From a virus: 28,364 bases of DNA. The notes beneath the pieces are model-generated. The model was not told where the DNA came from. It was given only the letters and a program-made list of their open reading frames with translations, and made no database searches. The DNA lies in IMG/VR virus record IMGVR_UViG_3300027734_000252, positions 1-28,364 of that record; one strand, written 5' to 3'. The position numbers and the translations under genes were made by a program. Of this stretch, positions 8,905-20,913 are shown in pieces (the stretch's first letter is position 1; each line of letters begins with the position of its first letter).

Positions 8905-9471
8905 ATGGCATCTCTGCATATTCTTGAATCTTCAATAGATTTATTCTACTTAATTGCCGATTCTGAAGGGTTAATACTTACGAGTAATGACCTTTTCAAA
9001 GAGTACAGCAGCCACATCAAGCCTAAGAACATCCTTGACATCGCATCGAATGACAGCGATAGGGATGATTTCTTGGCAACTATTAACAGATCCAAACAAA
9101 AGCCACCTGATCCTCAACGGGTTTATGTGCGTTCCAAGCAGAAGATCGGCTCGGAGCGTTACAATATGTGGAACGTATACTACATCTTAGATTCACTTCA
9201 CTTCATCGGCATACCTTGTGTAGATGTTACGAGCATAACTGCACACGAACACGAAAGGCAGAAGGTGCTGATTGAGGAATTTCGCTTTATGATCTCGCAC
9301 GAACTACGCCAGCCATTGACTTCCATCGGTGGCTTAGTTGATATGTTAATGGAGCATAAGGAGGCAACTGAATCAGAACGCTCTGCCATAATGGAGATGA
9401 TTGCCGACAGCGTTAAGAGGCTTGATGAATCAATAAGGTTGCTTGTCAAGAAGTTGACTCGTCAAATTTAA
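8905..9471 (+). CDS. PAS-like/HisKA phosphoacceptor protein lacking ATPase domain
   Basis: 188 aa. Residues about 1-110 look like a PAS-type sensor domain (FYLIADSEGLILTSNDLF ... WNVYYILDSLHFIGIPCVDVT). Residues about 122-186 form a HisKA dimerisation and phosphotransfer domain with the H-box FRFMISHELRQPLTSIGG; His132 is the phosphoacceptor, followed by the usual Glu and Pro. The protein stops just after the second helix of HisKA, and the HATPase_c domain (N, G1, G2 boxes) is absent from it and from the next gene. It cannot phosphorylate itself alone, but could accept phosphate from, dimerise with or titrate host two-component proteins. The lack of a frameshifted remnant downstream argues for a genuine short form. 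No membrane segment, so probably cytoplasmic. Confidence 0.8.
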   Translation: MASLHILESSIDLFYLIADSEGLILTSNDLFKEYSSHIKPKNILDIASNDSDRDDFLATINRSKQKPPDPQRVYVRSKQKIGSERYNMWNVYYILDSLHFIGIPCVDVTSITAHEHERQKVLIEEFRFMISHELRQPLTSIGGLVDMLMEHKEATESERSAIMEMIADSVKRLDESIRLLVKKLTRQI

Positions 9472-10420: not shown

Positions 10421-10491
10421 GTGTATTGCAGAATCAAAATAAGGTTCTACATTTGTCAAACCAAAACGAACAATTCACACCTATTCAAACC
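10421..10491 (+). repeat. Promoter-leader cassette, copy 1
   Basis: This stretch is repeated at 17263-17333. Both copies hold the promoter with a 19-nt spacer, a leader of exactly 36 nt between the -7 element and ATG, and the conserved leader end ACAATTCA-N-ACCTATTCAA-N3-ATG. The genes behind the two copies are unrelated, so the cassette itself was duplicated or conserved. Confidence 0.75.
10426..10455 (+). promoter_or_regulatory. Strong early-type promoter, copy 1
   Basis: TTG at 10426-10428, a 19-nt spacer and TACATTTG at 10448-10455 are an optimal Bacteroidota promoter. The spacer is nearly the same as in the promoter at 17268-17297 (15 of 19 bases). It should drive the small genes from 10492 and possibly the DNA-metabolism operon by read-through. 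Confidence 0.8.
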
Positions 10492-10716
10492 ATGAGCAAC
10501 TCAACAATTAAATCAGGATCAGTAATTACAGCGGTAAGTGTTTGTGATTCTAACTGCATTTTTAAGGCAGAAGTATTAAGCCGTAAAGGTGATTTTGTAA
10601 CTCTTAAAATTGAAGGCTACAAAGACATTGTACGCAAAAAAGTAAAAGTAGGCTACAACGGTAATGAGTACGTTATGGCTTTAGGATCTTACTCAATGGC
10701 TCCAATATTTTCATAA
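10492..10716 (+). CDS. Small early protein, unknown
   Basis: 74 aa from the ATG at 10492; the frame is open upstream, but that part is the promoter and leader. Predicted beta-rich (SGSVITAVSVCDSNCIFKAEVLSRKGDFVTLKIEG), ending in KKVKVGYNGNEYVMALGSYSMAPIFS, which looks like a small SH3-like or OB-like fold. Two Cys occur near the middle. It is the first gene of a transcript starting at about 10460 and is followed by a GGGCGG/CCGCCC hairpin. Being first behind a strong promoter suggests early expression and possibly host takeover, which is inference. Confidence 0.6.
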   Translation: MSNSTIKSGSVITAVSVCDSNCIFKAEVLSRKGDFVTLKIEGYKDIVRKKVKVGYNGNEYVMALGSYSMAPIFS

Positions 10717-14658: not shown

Positions 14659-15305
14659 TGGAAATTAAAAATCAGCAGATATTCACTTGCGGTGAAGGTG
14701 AACAGAGTTATCAAATGTATTTTACTATTGATTTAATTCCAATTTCAGTTGTGTTTAAATACGATTTTATTGAATCAAAAAGTTCTTGGTTTAATATATC
14801 AACTGGTAAAAATGAATTTATTTCTAATTCTAAACAACCCAGAATTATTGAAAATCTTTTTACTCGTGAAATATATCAGCAAATAATTGATTTAGTTTGT
14901 GATAGATTAAATCTTGAAAAAAGAAGTATTCTTTGCTTAAAAGAAACATCATTGAAAAATTCTTTTAATTTTTCTAAAGATGAATATTTTTATGAATTTC
15001 AATATTATGGGAATTTTGGAAGGTGTTATTGTGTTGAAACTAAATTACACAACGCCTTAAAATATTGGGATGAATTAAAAAAAGTCATTCATAGAAACTC
15101 TGATGATGAATTTTATTTTAATGAAATGGATGAGTTTGATCGTGGCTTTTATAGTCAGTTTATTGATTTAAGAAAAAACCTTAATTTACAAGGAGTATTT
15201 AAGTATAGAGATCATCACTATATCTCTGATAAAACAATGGATAATTTCATTGATAATTTGGCAAAAAAATCAAAGAGAATTAAAAAAGAAACTCAATCAA
15301 TATGA
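14658..15305 (+). CDS. AT-rich unknown gene, possible moron
   Basis: 215 aa, no family recognised. The DNA is visibly much richer in A and T than the neighbours, with AAA, GAA, TTT and ATT preferred where the phage elsewhere often uses AAG, GAG, TTC and ATC. The protein is rich in Phe, Tyr, Lys and Asn (DEYFYEFQYYGNFGRCYCVE), soluble, mixed alpha/beta with a basic C-terminal helix (KKSKRIKKE). It is embedded in the operon by TAATG and ATGA overlaps, so it is not a crude insertion. The composition break suggests recent acquisition. With the lipoprotein gene next to it, it could form a fitness or exclusion cassette, which is inference. Confidence 0.6.
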   Translation: MEIKNQQIFTCGEGEQSYQMYFTIDLIPISVVFKYDFIESKSSWFNISTGKNEFISNSKQPRIIENLFTREIYQQIIDLVCDRLNLEKRSILCLKETSLKNSFNFSKDEYFYEFQYYGNFGRCYCVETKLHNALKYWDELKKVIHRNSDDEFYFNEMDEFDRGFYSQFIDLRKNLNLQGVFKYRDHHYISDKTMDNFIDNLAKKSKRIKKETQSI

Positions 15306-15544
15306 AAACAACCCTATCAATTCTCATCCTGCTTGCCTCTCTATCAAGTTGTAGAAAGTGCTACGATTGCAGGGTAACAACAACGACCACTGGCTTTGAA
15401 TCGCAAACGCAAATGACCAGAATCGAAAAGTGCGGAATGACTAACCGAGATGTTAATGCATTTAAGGTAGGGATGGAAGGCACGACAAGTACAACATTAA
15501 ATGGCAAAAAAGTAACTGTGAAAACTACGGTTAACTGCTATTAA
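15302..15544 (+). CDS. Phage-encoded lipoprotein
   Basis: 80 aa. A type II signal peptide is clear: MKTTLSILILLASLSSC with lipobox LSSC and the lipidated Cys at residue 17. The mature part begins CRKCYDC and contains further Cys at about 44 and 79, so disulfides are likely after export. The remainder is Thr-rich and beta-like. In Gram-negative phages small lipoproteins are often moron products that block receptors or DNA entry of competing phages (for example T5 Llp); lysis lipoproteins (o-spanins) are the alternative. ATGA overlap couples it to the AT-rich gene. Confidence 0.75.
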   Translation: MKTTLSILILLASLSSCRKCYDCRVTTTTTGFESQTQMTRIEKCGMTNRDVNAFKVGMEGTTSTTLNGKKVTVKTTVNCY

Positions 15545-15549
15545 TTTTT

Positions 15550-15557
15550 TATCTTTG
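15550..15557 (+). promoter_or_regulatory. -7 element of the structured RNA
   Basis: TATCTTTG, 5 nt after the lipoprotein stop and preceded by a T-rich run. No TTG lies at the ideal distance, so the -33 half is weak. Expected transcript start about 15560-15564. Confidence 0.55.
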
Positions 15558-15678
15558 TGGTAGTTCAGAGGTCAGAGCCTGAATGAAAAGAAATTTATCG
15601 CCCTATACGGGCTGCGAGGAAAGGCAGTTGATTCTGTTGATCCGCTCTGACCGCAGCTTGTATGGGGCTTTTTGTTTT
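15558..15678 (+). ncRNA. Candidate structured RNA / attenuator leader
   Basis: GCCCTATACGGGCTGCG (15600-15616) can pair along its full 17 nt with CGCAGCTTGTATGGGGC (15652-15668), with three G-U pairs, and TTTTTGTTTT follows: a strong terminator-like hairpin. Its 35-nt loop contains GCTCTGACC (15644-15652), which is perfectly complementary to GGTCAGAGC (15570-15578) near the RNA's 5' end. The two helices cross, so they form a pseudoknot or alternative folds; a small GCCC/GGGC hairpin (15600-15612) would compete with the terminator stem. The initiator ATG follows at 15682, so premature termination could control replication genes. The region also reads through as an in-frame extension of that protein, which I consider less likely. 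Confidence 0.6.
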
Positions 15679-15681
15679 GGT

Positions 15682-16488
15682 ATGAGAAAATCTTTTATTC
15701 TTTACATTGATTCGTTTGAGGTGCTTCAGCATTTATCAGATGATCAACTTGGAAAACTTACCCGACTATTGTTTAATTATCAGATAGACGGATCAACACC
15801 AGAAGTTACCGATCCGCTATTTATTCCTTTCGGTTTTATTCGTTCTTCTATGGATCGAGATAATGAGAAATGGGAGCAACGTGCTGATAGAGCGAGAACT
15901 AATGGAACTAAAGGAGGCAGACCAAAAGAAAACCAAGATGGTTATCAAGAAACCCAAGAAACCCAGTCGGTTATTTCAAAACCCAAAGAACCTGTAAGTG
16001 TAAGTGTTAGTGTAAGTGGTAGTGTTAATGCAAGTGTAAGTGAAAATGTAAATGATAATGTTAGTTATAGATTTTCCGATTCTATCGAATCGAACCCTGT
16101 AACGATCCAACCTGATTCAATCCAACTATACACTCCTACCCTTGAAAAGAAAAAAGTTCCGCAAAAAAAGAAAGATCACCGCTTCGCAGATTCGATCTAT
16201 GCCGATGATCCCGATCTATTCATTGAGCATTGGAATCAAACCGAAACAGCAAGAACCTACCCAGACACCGATCCTCTAAAAGTTTACACAACCTTAAAAA
16301 CATCATCAGATGCCTCCTCAAAATATACCTACGCCAATTGGATCAGCGCAGCCCAAAATTGGGTTAAGCGAAATCCTGCCGAATACAAGCGAACTTTTAC
16401 CACAGCAACAGGTCATCAACTCCATCACAACGACCAAGCCATCCTCGACAGGGTTGAGCGGCTTACAAGAAATCATATTGGAGGCTAA
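15682..16488 (+). CDS. Replication initiator-like protein (DUF6291-type)
   Basis: 268 aa from the ATG at 15682; earlier in-frame ATG 15583 lies in the structured leader. Residues about 1-75 (KSFILYIDSFEVLQHLSDDQLGKLTRLLFNYQ ... FGFIRSSMDRDNEKWE) match my memory of DUF6291, which precedes DnaD-like replication proteins in Bacteroidota phages. After RADRARTNGTKGGRPKEN comes a low-complexity Ser/Val/Asn linker at about 105-128 encoded by hexamer repeats, then a C-terminal region (about 170-268; WISAAQNWVKRNP) like the DNA-binding end of phage initiators. It probably starts or helps start replication. No Walker motif is present. Confidence 0.65.
   Translation: MRKSFILYIDSFEVLQHLSDDQLGKLTRLLFNYQIDGSTPEVTDPLFIPFGFIRSSMDRDNEKWEQRADRARTNGTKGGRPKENQDGYQETQETQSVISKPKEPVSVSVSVSGSVNASVSENVNDNVSYRFSDSIESNPVTIQPDSIQLYTPTLEKKKVPQKKKDHRFADSIYADDPDLFIEHWNQTETARTYPDTDPLKVYTTLKTSSDASSKYTYANWISAAQNWVKRNPAEYKRTFTTATGHQLHHNDQAILDRVERLTRNHIGG
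15994..16065 (+). repeat. Hexamer direct repeats inside the initiator gene
   Basis: Twelve consecutive hexamers related to GTAAGT (GTAAGT, GTTAGT, GTAAAT and similar) encode the Ser/Val/Asn linker. A 14-nt palindrome GATTC-TATC-GAATC follows at 16078-16091. Lambda has its origin as repeats within the initiator gene O, so an origin role is possible; protein linker slippage is the simpler explanation. Confidence 0.55.
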
Positions 16489-16492
16489 CCGA

Positions 16493-17260
16493 ATGGGCAT
16501 CGAGGCACAGCCTCATCAGGTGGCAATGCTTCAGTATCATCGTAATTTTCCGATCAAGAAGATGGAGGCACAGTTAGCGAGGCGAAAGTTTTACGAGGTG
16601 CTTACCGTTATCATTCAAGTCTATTTTGGTGCTGACAAGAACACGCCCGATTCAGTTTTCAATGAGTGCTTTGATAGGATGATAAAAGACTGTGGCAGCA
16701 TCAGCATTGAAGAGGTCAGAGAAGCACACGCAGAATCATCTAAGAATGCCTTAAAAGCGTTCTATGGTATGTACACAGTCAATATGTTCAGCGAGATAAT
16801 GTATGCTTGGAAGCAGAAGCGCAGCAAGATCATCGCAGCCATCGACAACATCGACAAAATTAACGAGGTGGATGAGGCTGCGGAATTGGAAAGCAAGAAG
16901 CAGCAGTTCACTCAATACTGCAAAGATTGGCTCACCAATGAACTAAAGATCAAATCTGTTAGGCAATGGAGCGAGTTATCGCTGGGCATCTGCCAAGAGT
17001 TGATCGACTCTGGCACTGTGCAGGGCAATCGTCCTGATCTTTGGAAGCAGTCGGCAGATTTAACCTTGAAGCAGTATGAGCAAGATCGCAGCAAGGCATC
17101 AGCAGAGAAAGACTTTGCCACGCTGAAGAAGATGAACGCAGCAGTTGAGGCGATTATGGGTGGTATAGTGCCACAGGATGCGTTATCGAGGCGCAAAGCG
17201 ATCTATGCACGTTTACTTGTTTGGGATCACATCCAAAAAAATAAATCAAAAATAATTTGA
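16493..17260 (+). CDS. Protein downstream of the initiator, unknown
   Basis: 255 aa from the ATG at 16493, 4 nt after the initiator stop. The frame is open far upstream, and TTG at 16478 is an alternative start that would include protein-like residues EANR before the Met. Almost all helical, Lys/Glu-rich, with no P-loop, zinc finger or nuclease motif. Stretches such as KKMEAQLARRKFYEVLTVII and YGMYTVNMFSEIMYAWKQKR suggest helical bundles. Its position after the initiator gene is where phages often place a helicase loader or primosome part, but the missing Walker A motif speaks against an AAA+ loader. The transcript then meets a new promoter at 17268. Confidence 0.5.
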   Translation: MGIEAQPHQVAMLQYHRNFPIKKMEAQLARRKFYEVLTVIIQVYFGADKNTPDSVFNECFDRMIKDCGSISIEEVREAHAESSKNALKAFYGMYTVNMFSEIMYAWKQKRSKIIAAIDNIDKINEVDEAAELESKKQQFTQYCKDWLTNELKIKSVRQWSELSLGICQELIDSGTVQGNRPDLWKQSADLTLKQYEQDRSKASAEKDFATLKKMNAAVEAIMGGIVPQDALSRRKAIYARLLVWDHIQKNKSKII

Positions 17261-17262
17261 TT

Positions 17263-17333
17263 ATGTATTGCGGAATCAAAAAAGGTTTCTATATTTGCTG
17301 AACAATAATTCACAATTCAAACCTATTCAAGTT
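17263..17333 (+). repeat. Promoter-leader cassette, copy 2
   Basis: Second copy of the cassette at 10421-10491: identical TGTATTG box, 15 of 19 spacer bases, 7 of 8 bases of the -7 element, a 36-nt leader and the same end (ACAATTCA-N-ACCTATTCAA-N3-ATG). Confidence 0.75.
17268..17297 (+). promoter_or_regulatory. Strong early-type promoter, copy 2
   Basis: TTG at 17268-17270, a 19-nt spacer and TATATTTG at 17290-17297. It should drive the small genes from 17334 onward. The element sits right after the previous gene's stop at 17260. Confidence 0.8.
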
Positions 17334-17516
17334 ATGATCTCAATCACAATCACTCCAGAAATCGCAATCGAAATTCAATCTTCAATCGCTCAGTTTGAAA
17401 ATCTTATTGCAAGAGAAATGAATATCTCCGAAGATCTTAGATATACTCACAAGATCGAACTTTATAAGTCAAAGATTCAAGAATTAAAACAAGGTTTGTC
17501 TGATGGCTTTATTTAA
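17334..17516 (+). CDS. Small helical early protein, unknown
   Basis: 60 aa from the ATG at 17334; the upstream in-frame TTG at 17268 is the promoter -33 box. It has an N-terminal strand (ISITITPEIAIEIQ) and two amphipathic helices (SSIAQFENLIAREMN and THKIELYKSKIQELKQG), a likely coiled-coil hairpin. First gene behind promoter copy 2 and preceded by CCTATTCAA. No family recognised. Confidence 0.6.
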   Translation: MISITITPEIAIEIQSSIAQFENLIAREMNISEDLRYTHKIELYKSKIQELKQGLSDGFI

Positions 17517-19413: not shown

Positions 19414-19554
19414 ATGCCATTATTTCAGGGAGATACAGAGCAGATAATTCAGATGAACATCCGCAAGCTAATAAGCGAAGGCTACAATCAAGATCAAGCA
19501 GTTGCCATCGCCTATGCGGAAGCAGACAAGTATCGCAAAGCAAGAAGCAAATGA
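19414..19554 (+). CDS. 46-aa small phage protein
   Basis: ATG at 19414 to TGA at 19552-19554. The sequence MPLFQGDTEQIIQMNIRKL then SEGYNQDQAVAIAYAEADKYR contains the 'GYxxxQAVAIAYxEA' helix common in small phage proteins and at the ends of head-morphogenesis proteins. It lies 21 nt after a -7 element and overlaps the ParB-like start (ATGATG), so it is the first cistron of that transcript. Function unknown. Confidence 0.75.
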   Translation: MPLFQGDTEQIIQMNIRKLISEGYNQDQAVAIAYAEADKYRKARSK

Positions 19555-20147
19555 TGAAAACCAAAATTGTTAAGATAGGTGATGTCAAGATCAATCCAAA
19601 CAATCCGAGATTGATCAAGGATGATAAGTTTGCCAAGTTGGTGCAGTCGATTAAAGACTTGCCTCAGATGCTTGACATTCGCCCAATCGTGGTAAATAGT
19701 GATATGGTAGTGCTTGGTGGCAATATGCGACTAAGGGCTTGCAAGGAAGCAGGATTGAAGCAAGTGCCGATAATCATAGCAGACAATCTAACCGAAGATC
19801 AGCAGCGCGAGTTCCTGATTAAGGACAACGTAAGCGGTGGTGAATGGGATTGGGCTTTACTGCAGGATTGGGATTCTCAACAGTTAAGTGAATGGGGCTT
19901 AGATGTGCCTAATTATTTGGCAGGATTAGATGTTAACAATATGACTGATGATGATGTTGCCTTAGAAGATGAGTTTGATCCAATAGGAAGTTCTACAGAT
20001 CTTCACAAAGTAATTTTTATATTCGATAATGAATTAGAGGCAGGACAATATTTTGATCAAAGAATTAAAGGGTTAGACTATAAAAAGTTTGGTGGAGGTC
20101 AAGGCAAGCAATGGCAGGTTAATTTATCTAAAACTTATGGTAAATAG
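19551..20147 (+). CDS. ParB-like nuclease-domain protein
   Basis: 198 aa (ATG 19551 or the adjacent 19554). Residues about 1-95 are a ParB/Srx-type domain: VKIGDVKINPNNPRLIKDDKF, DIRPIVVNSDMVVLGGNMRLRACKEAG, with the GGNxRLxA nucleotide-binding box at 56-63, and KDNVSGGEWDW. Such stand-alone domains in phages often act with DNA methyltransferases or packaging genes and can bind NTPs or have nuclease activity. No ParB HTH domain follows; the C-terminus (about 145-198) is unrelated. Base composition becomes AT-richer from about 19980, continuing into the next gene. Confidence 0.8.
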   Translation: MMKTKIVKIGDVKINPNNPRLIKDDKFAKLVQSIKDLPQMLDIRPIVVNSDMVVLGGNMRLRACKEAGLKQVPIIIADNLTEDQQREFLIKDNVSGGEWDWALLQDWDSQQLSEWGLDVPNYLAGLDVNNMTDDDVALEDEFDPIGSSTDLHKVIFIFDNELEAGQYFDQRIKGLDYKKFGGGQGKQWQVNLSKTYGK

Positions 20148-20913
20148 ATTTCCAGTGTACATAATATCAAAAGGCAGATATGAGAAAACTCTAACAGCAG
20201 ATAGATTTGATTCATACGGGGTTCAATATCTTATAGCAGTTGAGCCACAAGAATATGATCTATATTGTAAAAAACTAGGAAAAGATAAAGTATTGAAATT
20301 GCCATTTTCAAATCTTGGTCTAGGTAGTTATCCAGCAAGAAATTTCTGTTGGGAGGATGCTAAATCAAAAGGATATAGTCATCATTGGATTTTTGATGAT
20401 AACATTACAGAATTTAGAAAATGGATTAATCAAAAAAGAGAAATAATAAAAGATTACAATACTGCATTGATCTACGTTGAAAATTATGCGTTAAGAAATA
20501 ATGTAGATGTTTCAGGATTTGAGGAGTACAACTTTTGTGTAACGCCACCTAAAAAGCCATTTAAGAATAATTGCCACGTTTATAGTGCTATGCTAATAAA
20601 AAATAACATTCCGTATCGTTGGAGGTTAAAGTATAACGAAGATGTGGATCTTTGCTTGCAGGTATTGCACAATGGAGGATCAACAGCGAGTTGTGTTTAT
20701 TATATGGCAAATAAGATAAGCACATCAGTAAAGATGAAGGGAGGCAATCAAACTGAACTTTATCAAGGAAATGCTCCAATTAAGAATTTACTAAAAGCAA
20801 AGATGCTCGAATCTGTATGGCCGCAATATGCTAAAACTGTTATAAGATTTAACAGGCATCACCATTTGGTTAATTGGAATGTGTTTAAGAAAACAGCCGT
20901 AAAACAGTCGTAA
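20137..20913 (+). CDS. Putative TET-associated-type (TAGT) glycosyltransferase
   Basis: 258 aa from the ATG at 20137, overlapping the ParB-like gene by 11 nt; an in-frame ATG at 20089 is deeper inside it. The start PVYIISKGRYEKTLTADRF, then IAVEPQEYDLYCK, VLKLPFSNLGLGSYPARNFCWEDA and WIFDDNITEF (Asp87-Asp88, the DxD-like metal/nucleotide-sugar site), and YNEDVDLCLQVL (Glu168, Asp169, Asp171) follow the GT-A layout of the TAGT family linked to TET/JBP-type base hydroxylation in phages. It may glycosylate a hydroxylated base in phage DNA. No hydroxylase or base-hydroxymethylating enzyme is visible in this window. The gene is AT-rich compared with the terminases. The family is recognised by eye. 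Confidence 0.65.
   Translation: MVNRFPVYIISKGRYEKTLTADRFDSYGVQYLIAVEPQEYDLYCKKLGKDKVLKLPFSNLGLGSYPARNFCWEDAKSKGYSHHWIFDDNITEFRKWINQKREIIKDYNTALIYVENYALRNNVDVSGFEEYNFCVTPPKKPFKNNCHVYSAMLIKNNIPYRWRLKYNEDVDLCLQVLHNGGSTASCVYYMANKISTSVKMKGGNQTELYQGNAPIKNLLKAKMLESVWPQYAKTVIRFNRHHHLVNWNVFKKTAVKQS

Follow-up and report, generated by a model that had tools for sequence, protein, structure and literature searches.

What is a structured RNA, equipped with a promoter and a terminator of its own, doing directly ahead of a phage replication gene? The question arises at positions 15550–15681 of the window, that is, the whole stretch of 28,364 nucleotides analyzed here (IMG/VR record IMGVR_UViG_3300027734_000252). 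The first-pass annotation had proposed either a small RNA or a transcription attenuator/riboswitch. The structured RNA, its promoter-to-terminator anatomy and its link to the replication gene hold across a family of phages. Of the two branches the attenuator is favored, because the terminator stem (P2) and a hairpin that competes with it (Palt) are both conserved and mutually exclusive, and because there is no room for another promoter between the RNA and the first gene. On these comparative grounds we consider it probable that the element is a cis-acting transcription attenuator, a leader RNA of the phage replication operon.

Anatomy and fold of the RNA

The element, its promoter and the gene that follows all lie on the plus strand. 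A −7 promoter element, TATCTTTG, can be read at 15550–15557, where it had been noted before, and is of the TAnnTTTG type that is the consensus in Bacteroidota (PMC7366714). The RNA itself measures 116 nt from its promoter-proximal end to the end of the T tract (15563–15678). The terminator stem P2 reads as originally described: its 5′ arm GCCCTATACGGGCTGCG (15600–15616) pairs across all 17 nt with the 3′ arm CGCAGCTTGTATGGGGC (15652–15668), with three G-U pairs. It is followed by the T tract TTTTTGTTTT (15669–15678) of an intrinsic terminator, the trinucleotide GGT and, as also noted before, the ATG (15682) of the first gene past the terminator. This gene (15682–16488) encodes a DUF6291 protein of replication initiator type (PF19808, E 1e-21). 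Thermodynamic folding gave a minimum free energy of −48.9 kcal/mol against −34.6 ± 3.4 for shuffled sequences (z −4.2), better than all 200 shuffles.

A first scan of IMG/VR with the downstream protein returned nine loci whose preceding ~120 nt could be aligned over their full length. Scans with DNA patterns, two further scans guided by protein and then a covariance model based on 23 members enlarged the set to 67 distinct members, all on IMG/VR contigs of Bacteroidota-type phages. The E-values of this model are rough owing to a short calibration; the RNA of the window matches model R1 over positions 1–114 of 114 with 107 bits. Each related phage record carries one copy. In several of these records the near-palindromic stem produced a second match at this place on the opposite strand, and such minus-strand matches (18–38 bits) were ignored.

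The compensatory changes, whose absence from homologues had been named as a refutation, are present, the helices covarying in the 67 homologues. In the 67-row alignment the covariation score was 0.380, compared with 0.148 for shuffles and at most 0.063 for slid pairings (0/500), and 96.5% of alignment cells are paired. The 67 sequences are related, so that cell counts are not independent events, and the alignments were fitted to the nested structure of the model (P0, P2 and P3), which biases the counts for these helices toward it; those for P1 are free of this bias, since P1 is not part of the model. By covariation, the fold consisting of P0, P1, P2 and P3 is established.

P0 is a hairpin of 5 bp (15564–15568/15579–15583) with a 10-nt loop (15569–15578). 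It is missing from the first-pass annotation, its pairs are kept in 100% of cells, and three of the five show double changes. Its loop holds the 5′ strand of P1 (15571–15578), the 3′ strand of which (15644–15651) is flanked immediately by P3 and by the 3′ arm of P2. The 9-nt complementarity recorded earlier is real as an exact match, GGTCAGAGC (15570–15578) being the complement of GCTCTGACC (15644–15652), and is kept in the 67 homologues; in the window this 9-mer has no other exact copy and one further match with one mismatch. The pseudoknot of the family is 8 bp, however, and C15652, which had been claimed for both helices, belongs to the terminator stem. As the P0 loop is 10 nt in 67/67 sequences (2 + 8), two nucleotides cross P1. 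A hairpin loop that pairs downstream, a short crossing loop and covariation support are the marks of an H-type pseudoknot, and from the lengths P0 and P1 would be stacked in that geometry.

The P0 loop is invariant at 10 nt; P1 is hypervariable, occurring in 15 sequence versions. All 536 of 536 cells of P1 (67 sequences × 8 pairs) are nevertheless Watson-Crick, with no G-U pair, compared with G-U shares of about 9% in P2 and about 4% in P0. Two-sided changes affect six of its eight pairs and one-sided changes none, and throughout alignment A3 (56 sequences) the 3′ strand measures exactly 8 nt. The same P1 versions recur in different backbones: at least 24 changes of version are needed on a tree of the remaining RNA where 13 would suffice, from which it follows that identical versions arose more than once or were transferred by recombination. 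That tree is short and poorly resolved, making this result a lead only. A helix that is Watson-Crick only yet fast-changing is an unusual evolutionary signature, for which either strict geometry or self/non-self pairing could account.

P2 shows double changes in 9 of its 17 pairs. In P3 (15618–15620/15641–15643 plus 15623–15627/15634–15638) the inner 3 bp are kept in 100% of cells, the third with double changes, while the outer part and the loop vary. An A-A/G-A internal loop in P3 was considered as a binding motif and rejected, as it is lost in L270, L258, L275 and L305; around the junction only A15617 and the closing GG/CC pairs are invariant. Two further explanations of the sequence were set aside. 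The amino-acid reading from 15583 into the replication gene, raised in the first-pass annotation as the alternative to the helices, is not conserved, the frame 5′ of the start codon being stop-free in only 2 of 52 homologues. A DNA-level inverted repeat serving as a protein operator is contradicted by the G-U pairs in P2, P3 and P0, which are A-C mismatches on the other strand, and by the fixed positions that the repeats hold within covarying helices.

Genomic place and distribution

A TAnnTTT[GA] element sits 3–6 nt 5′ of the RNA in 53 of the 54 homologues tested; the L299 group reads TAnnTTAG. The genes upstream are of at least seven kinds, and homology begins about 10 nt before the −7 element. 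In the window, as in many relatives, a small probable lipoprotein with a signal peptide and Cys (15302–15544) is encoded directly 5′ of the RNA; a superinfection-exclusion function is possible. Downstream, the first start codon follows P2 by 8–25 nt (mode 12) on the same strand in 52/52 testable loci. The operon begins with a gene for DUF6291 or for an unrelated O-like/DnaD-like initiator, sometimes preceded by a small open reading frame, and in most loci read the initiator is followed by a DnaB helicase. The DUF6291 homologue of Flavobacterium phage elemo is annotated as a “replication protein” and lies beside primase/helicase genes. Neither the window nor L279 has a recognizable DnaB gene following DUF6291. 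In this position the window has an open reading frame (16310–17260) that shares 179 nt with the end of the DUF6291 gene and probably starts further downstream; its product, like that of L279, is a different, unrecognized protein.

The RNA is present in 29/31 loci with one initiator type and in 20/22 with the other. Two relatives without it, L280 and L281, carry the same nuclease-initiator (DUF6291) gene pair as L252, which has the RNA; in the former two the genes are 11–12 nt apart (about 2390–2500). The unit therefore behaves as an insertable promoter-RNA-terminator cassette.

The host phylum is probably Bacteroidota, judging from the promoter type and from distant relatives among Flavobacterium phages. 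A search for tyrosine integrases (fragments and serine recombinases fell outside it) found none in 20 related phage records, and the carriers are apparently lytic. Neither the window nor five divergent members matched any Rfam family at the gathering score, and at a relaxed threshold only chance hits appeared. Among GenBank phages, as far as searched, there was no credible DNA match, weak partial matches to a Vibrio phage and a Lactococcus phage being taken as chance; with the covariance model, Flavobacterium phages 11b and elemo and three others yielded no convincing hit. A scan of 84,980 bacterial and archaeal species genomes with one pattern, which divergent prophage copies could escape, gave 25 scattered hits and no true homologue; spread across unrelated phyla, these were read as chance and not as prophage copies. 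The family is absent from Rfam and is probably a previously undescribed switch.

Several other features of the window deserve mention. Two similar promoter-leader units (10427–10492 and 17265–17334) read TATTGC-GAATCAAAA..GGTT..TAnATTTG..GAACAATTCACACCTATTCAA followed by ATG, each ahead of a different small gene; the second also occurs in L023, making this a repeated phage leader. A HisKA phospho-acceptor domain (PF00512) with an N-terminal sensor-like part and no ATPase domain (8905–9471) represents a truncated histidine kinase in a phage. A TET-associated glycosyltransferase (20089–20913; PF20691, E 3e-34) adjoins a ParB_N protein (19551–20147), a pairing that suggests modified phage DNA.

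Termination, the competing hairpin and rival readings

P2 is weakest at its center. Non-Watson-Crick pairs occur at pairs 10, 9 and 11 in 98%, 72% and 25% of sequences, and in at most 24% elsewhere, and these three central pairs overlap the 3′ strand of Palt (15600–15603/15609–15612), which lies within the 5′ arm. This GCCC/GGGC hairpin, earlier said to break the terminator stem, exists and is conserved. It reaches at least 4 bp in 21 of the 22 distinct P2 5′ arms, and 20 of the 22 fold on themselves at p below 0.05 compared with shuffles, whereas the 3′ arm, a control with no second role, passes in 2/24. Column-wise counting on Palt alone reveals no covariation, since its changes are register shifts, and the evidence for it is this arm-by-arm test. 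Three versions fold in a shifted register, as seen in the L299 group, L174 and L136; in the L299 group AGCCC...GGGCU has become GUCACC...GGUGAC, which forms a perfect hairpin at the shifted position and retains its pairing to the 3′ arm. Past P2, 6–8 of 9 nt are T in 67/67 members, with a run of at least five T in 64/67. Between promoter and first codon there is, then, an intrinsic terminator (a G+C-rich stem plus T tract) together with a conserved alternative structure that excludes its stem. That a single strand has kept two folds which exclude each other speaks for a transcription attenuator.

Folded without pseudoknots before the 3′ arm exists, a procedure in which P0 is lost, the transcript forms P1 and P3 in 53/54 and Palt in about 48/54 sequences. 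We picture the following course of events. RNA polymerase would start at the TAnnTTTG promoter and make P0 first; the P0 loop would then pair with the emerging 3′ strand of P1, giving an H-type pseudoknot (8-bp P1, 2-nt crossing loop) beside P3, at a moment when Palt occupies the 5′ arm of P2. Should Palt persist, polymerase would cross the T tract and transcribe the initiator and helicase genes; should the 3′ arm invade Palt, the 17-bp P2 would form, ending transcription and releasing a free RNA of roughly 105–120 nt. Comparison among homologues establishes the conservation of P0, P1, P2, P3 and Palt, their fixed geometry and their location, and the conservation of Palt suggests that the outcome at P2 is adjustable. 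That P2 acts as a terminator, with read-through under regulation and the Palt state stabilized by some factor, is our inference. Whether begun at this promoter or farther upstream, a transcript can enter the replication genes only by passing P2; should P2 terminate, attenuation is a necessity.

Which factor might this be? Autoregulation by the initiator is disfavored because near-identical RNAs precede unrelated initiators; it is unlikely that the initiator itself stabilizes Palt, and better candidates are a host factor, the polymerase or some other phage product. Attenuation has points against it. The stability of P2 exceeds that of the nascent fold by about 20 kcal/mol, so that read-through would need kinetic or factor help; no binding pocket is evident, the outer part of P3 being variable; and two relatives do entirely without the RNA. 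The element would represent an undescribed RNA family and, provided that the switch is real, a control at the RNA level over entry into DNA replication by Bacteroidota phages that are apparently lytic; it probably decides whether the replication genes are turned on.

The promoter and terminator found in nearly all members are also those of a free small RNA, and could point to an abundant product of ~110 nt acting in trans on host or phage targets, its location reflecting early expression only. The single copy per phage and the fast-changing P1 with its recurring versions fit such an RNA. A small RNA of this kind should sit independently of the downstream gene, but this one always heads the replication operon on the same strand, 8–25 nt from the first start codon. 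Its Palt/P2 conflict is conserved, it has no single-stranded seed region besides an A-rich linker, and a third copy of the P1 sequence is found seven times in the fetched loci where six are expected, which is not above chance. We regard a purely trans-acting role as unlikely, while according it some weight.

The terminated RNA might instead act in trans on read-through at its own locus, as a dual element resembling IsrK of Salmonella prophage Gifsy-1, a small RNA with the same layout, in which transcription can pass the terminator and enter phage genes (PMC4825925). The P1 versions would then be self-recognition tags between copies or co-infecting phages; P1 varies only by paired Watson-Crick swaps, and intermolecular specificity could explain this and the recurrence of versions across backbones. 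Intramolecular geometry alone may, however, demand strict Watson-Crick pairing, and there is no evidence of dimerization; we think this dual role quite improbable. To a related proposal we give similarly little credence: P1 may be the identity tag of a phage RNA switch, letting the RNA of each phage recognize its own kind both in cis and in trans, the free RNA setting copy number or excluding related co-infecting phages via read-through into the replication operon. A parallel is found in plasmids, where loop sequences set incompatibility.

Antitermination of the put type (phage HK022), in which the nascent pseudoknot would bind RNA polymerase and make it resist this and later terminators, appears very unlikely. 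The RNA is structured, promoter-proximal and ahead of early genes, and putRNA by itself suppresses pausing and termination (PMC9378689), but putRNA is not known to end in a terminator of its own, and comparison with Rfam linked the present RNA to none of the known families. Within the DUF6291 gene, 0.3 kb downstream of the RNA, lies an array of short repeats of a 6-bp type (15993–16070; TGTAAG/TGTTAG...), at a place where homologues have other dipeptide-repeat linkers (VNVNEN, KDKDK, NDNDN); these may be origin iterons located, as in lambda O, inside an initiator gene. The transcript is directed toward them, but the terminator stops it short of the repeats, GC skew does not switch here and the RNA is kept with unrelated initiators, leaving a primer or activating transcript for an origin in the initiator gene hardly credible.

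Comparison with known systems

The favored reading, a cis-acting attenuator, places the RNA closest to terminator-type attenuators and riboswitch leaders, with which it shares exclusive hairpins on one strand, an intrinsic terminator just before the start codon and a position at the operon head. It differs in having no known ligand, an alternative hairpin of only 3–7 bp, a P0-P1 pseudoknot body compatible with both states, and a phage replication operon as its setting. In the immunity systems of phages P4 (CI RNA) and P1 (c4 RNA), replication or antirepressor operons are controlled through RNA pairing, at the level of premature termination or of translation; a processed antisense RNA acts in prophages, and specificity resides in short complementary stretches that differ between relatives. 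The last property is shared, whereas here both pairing strands belong to a single RNA, no antisense RNA came to light, and the carriers, by the integrase search above, do not appear temperate. T4 gene 32, also a phage replication gene, has an mRNA leader with an H-type pseudoknot, which serves as a translational operator for the gene product; in the present family the downstream protein type varies while the RNA is constant and has a terminator built in. IsrK has its own promoter and terminator, alternative structures and read-through into downstream phage genes (PMC4825925), a likeness of layout; it controls an antiterminator gene cascade in a prophage, whereas the present phages have no detectable tyrosine integrase. 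The put RNA of HK022 (PMC9378689) is also a structured nascent phage RNA near an early-gene promoter, but it suppresses termination, is not fused to a terminator and has a different structure.
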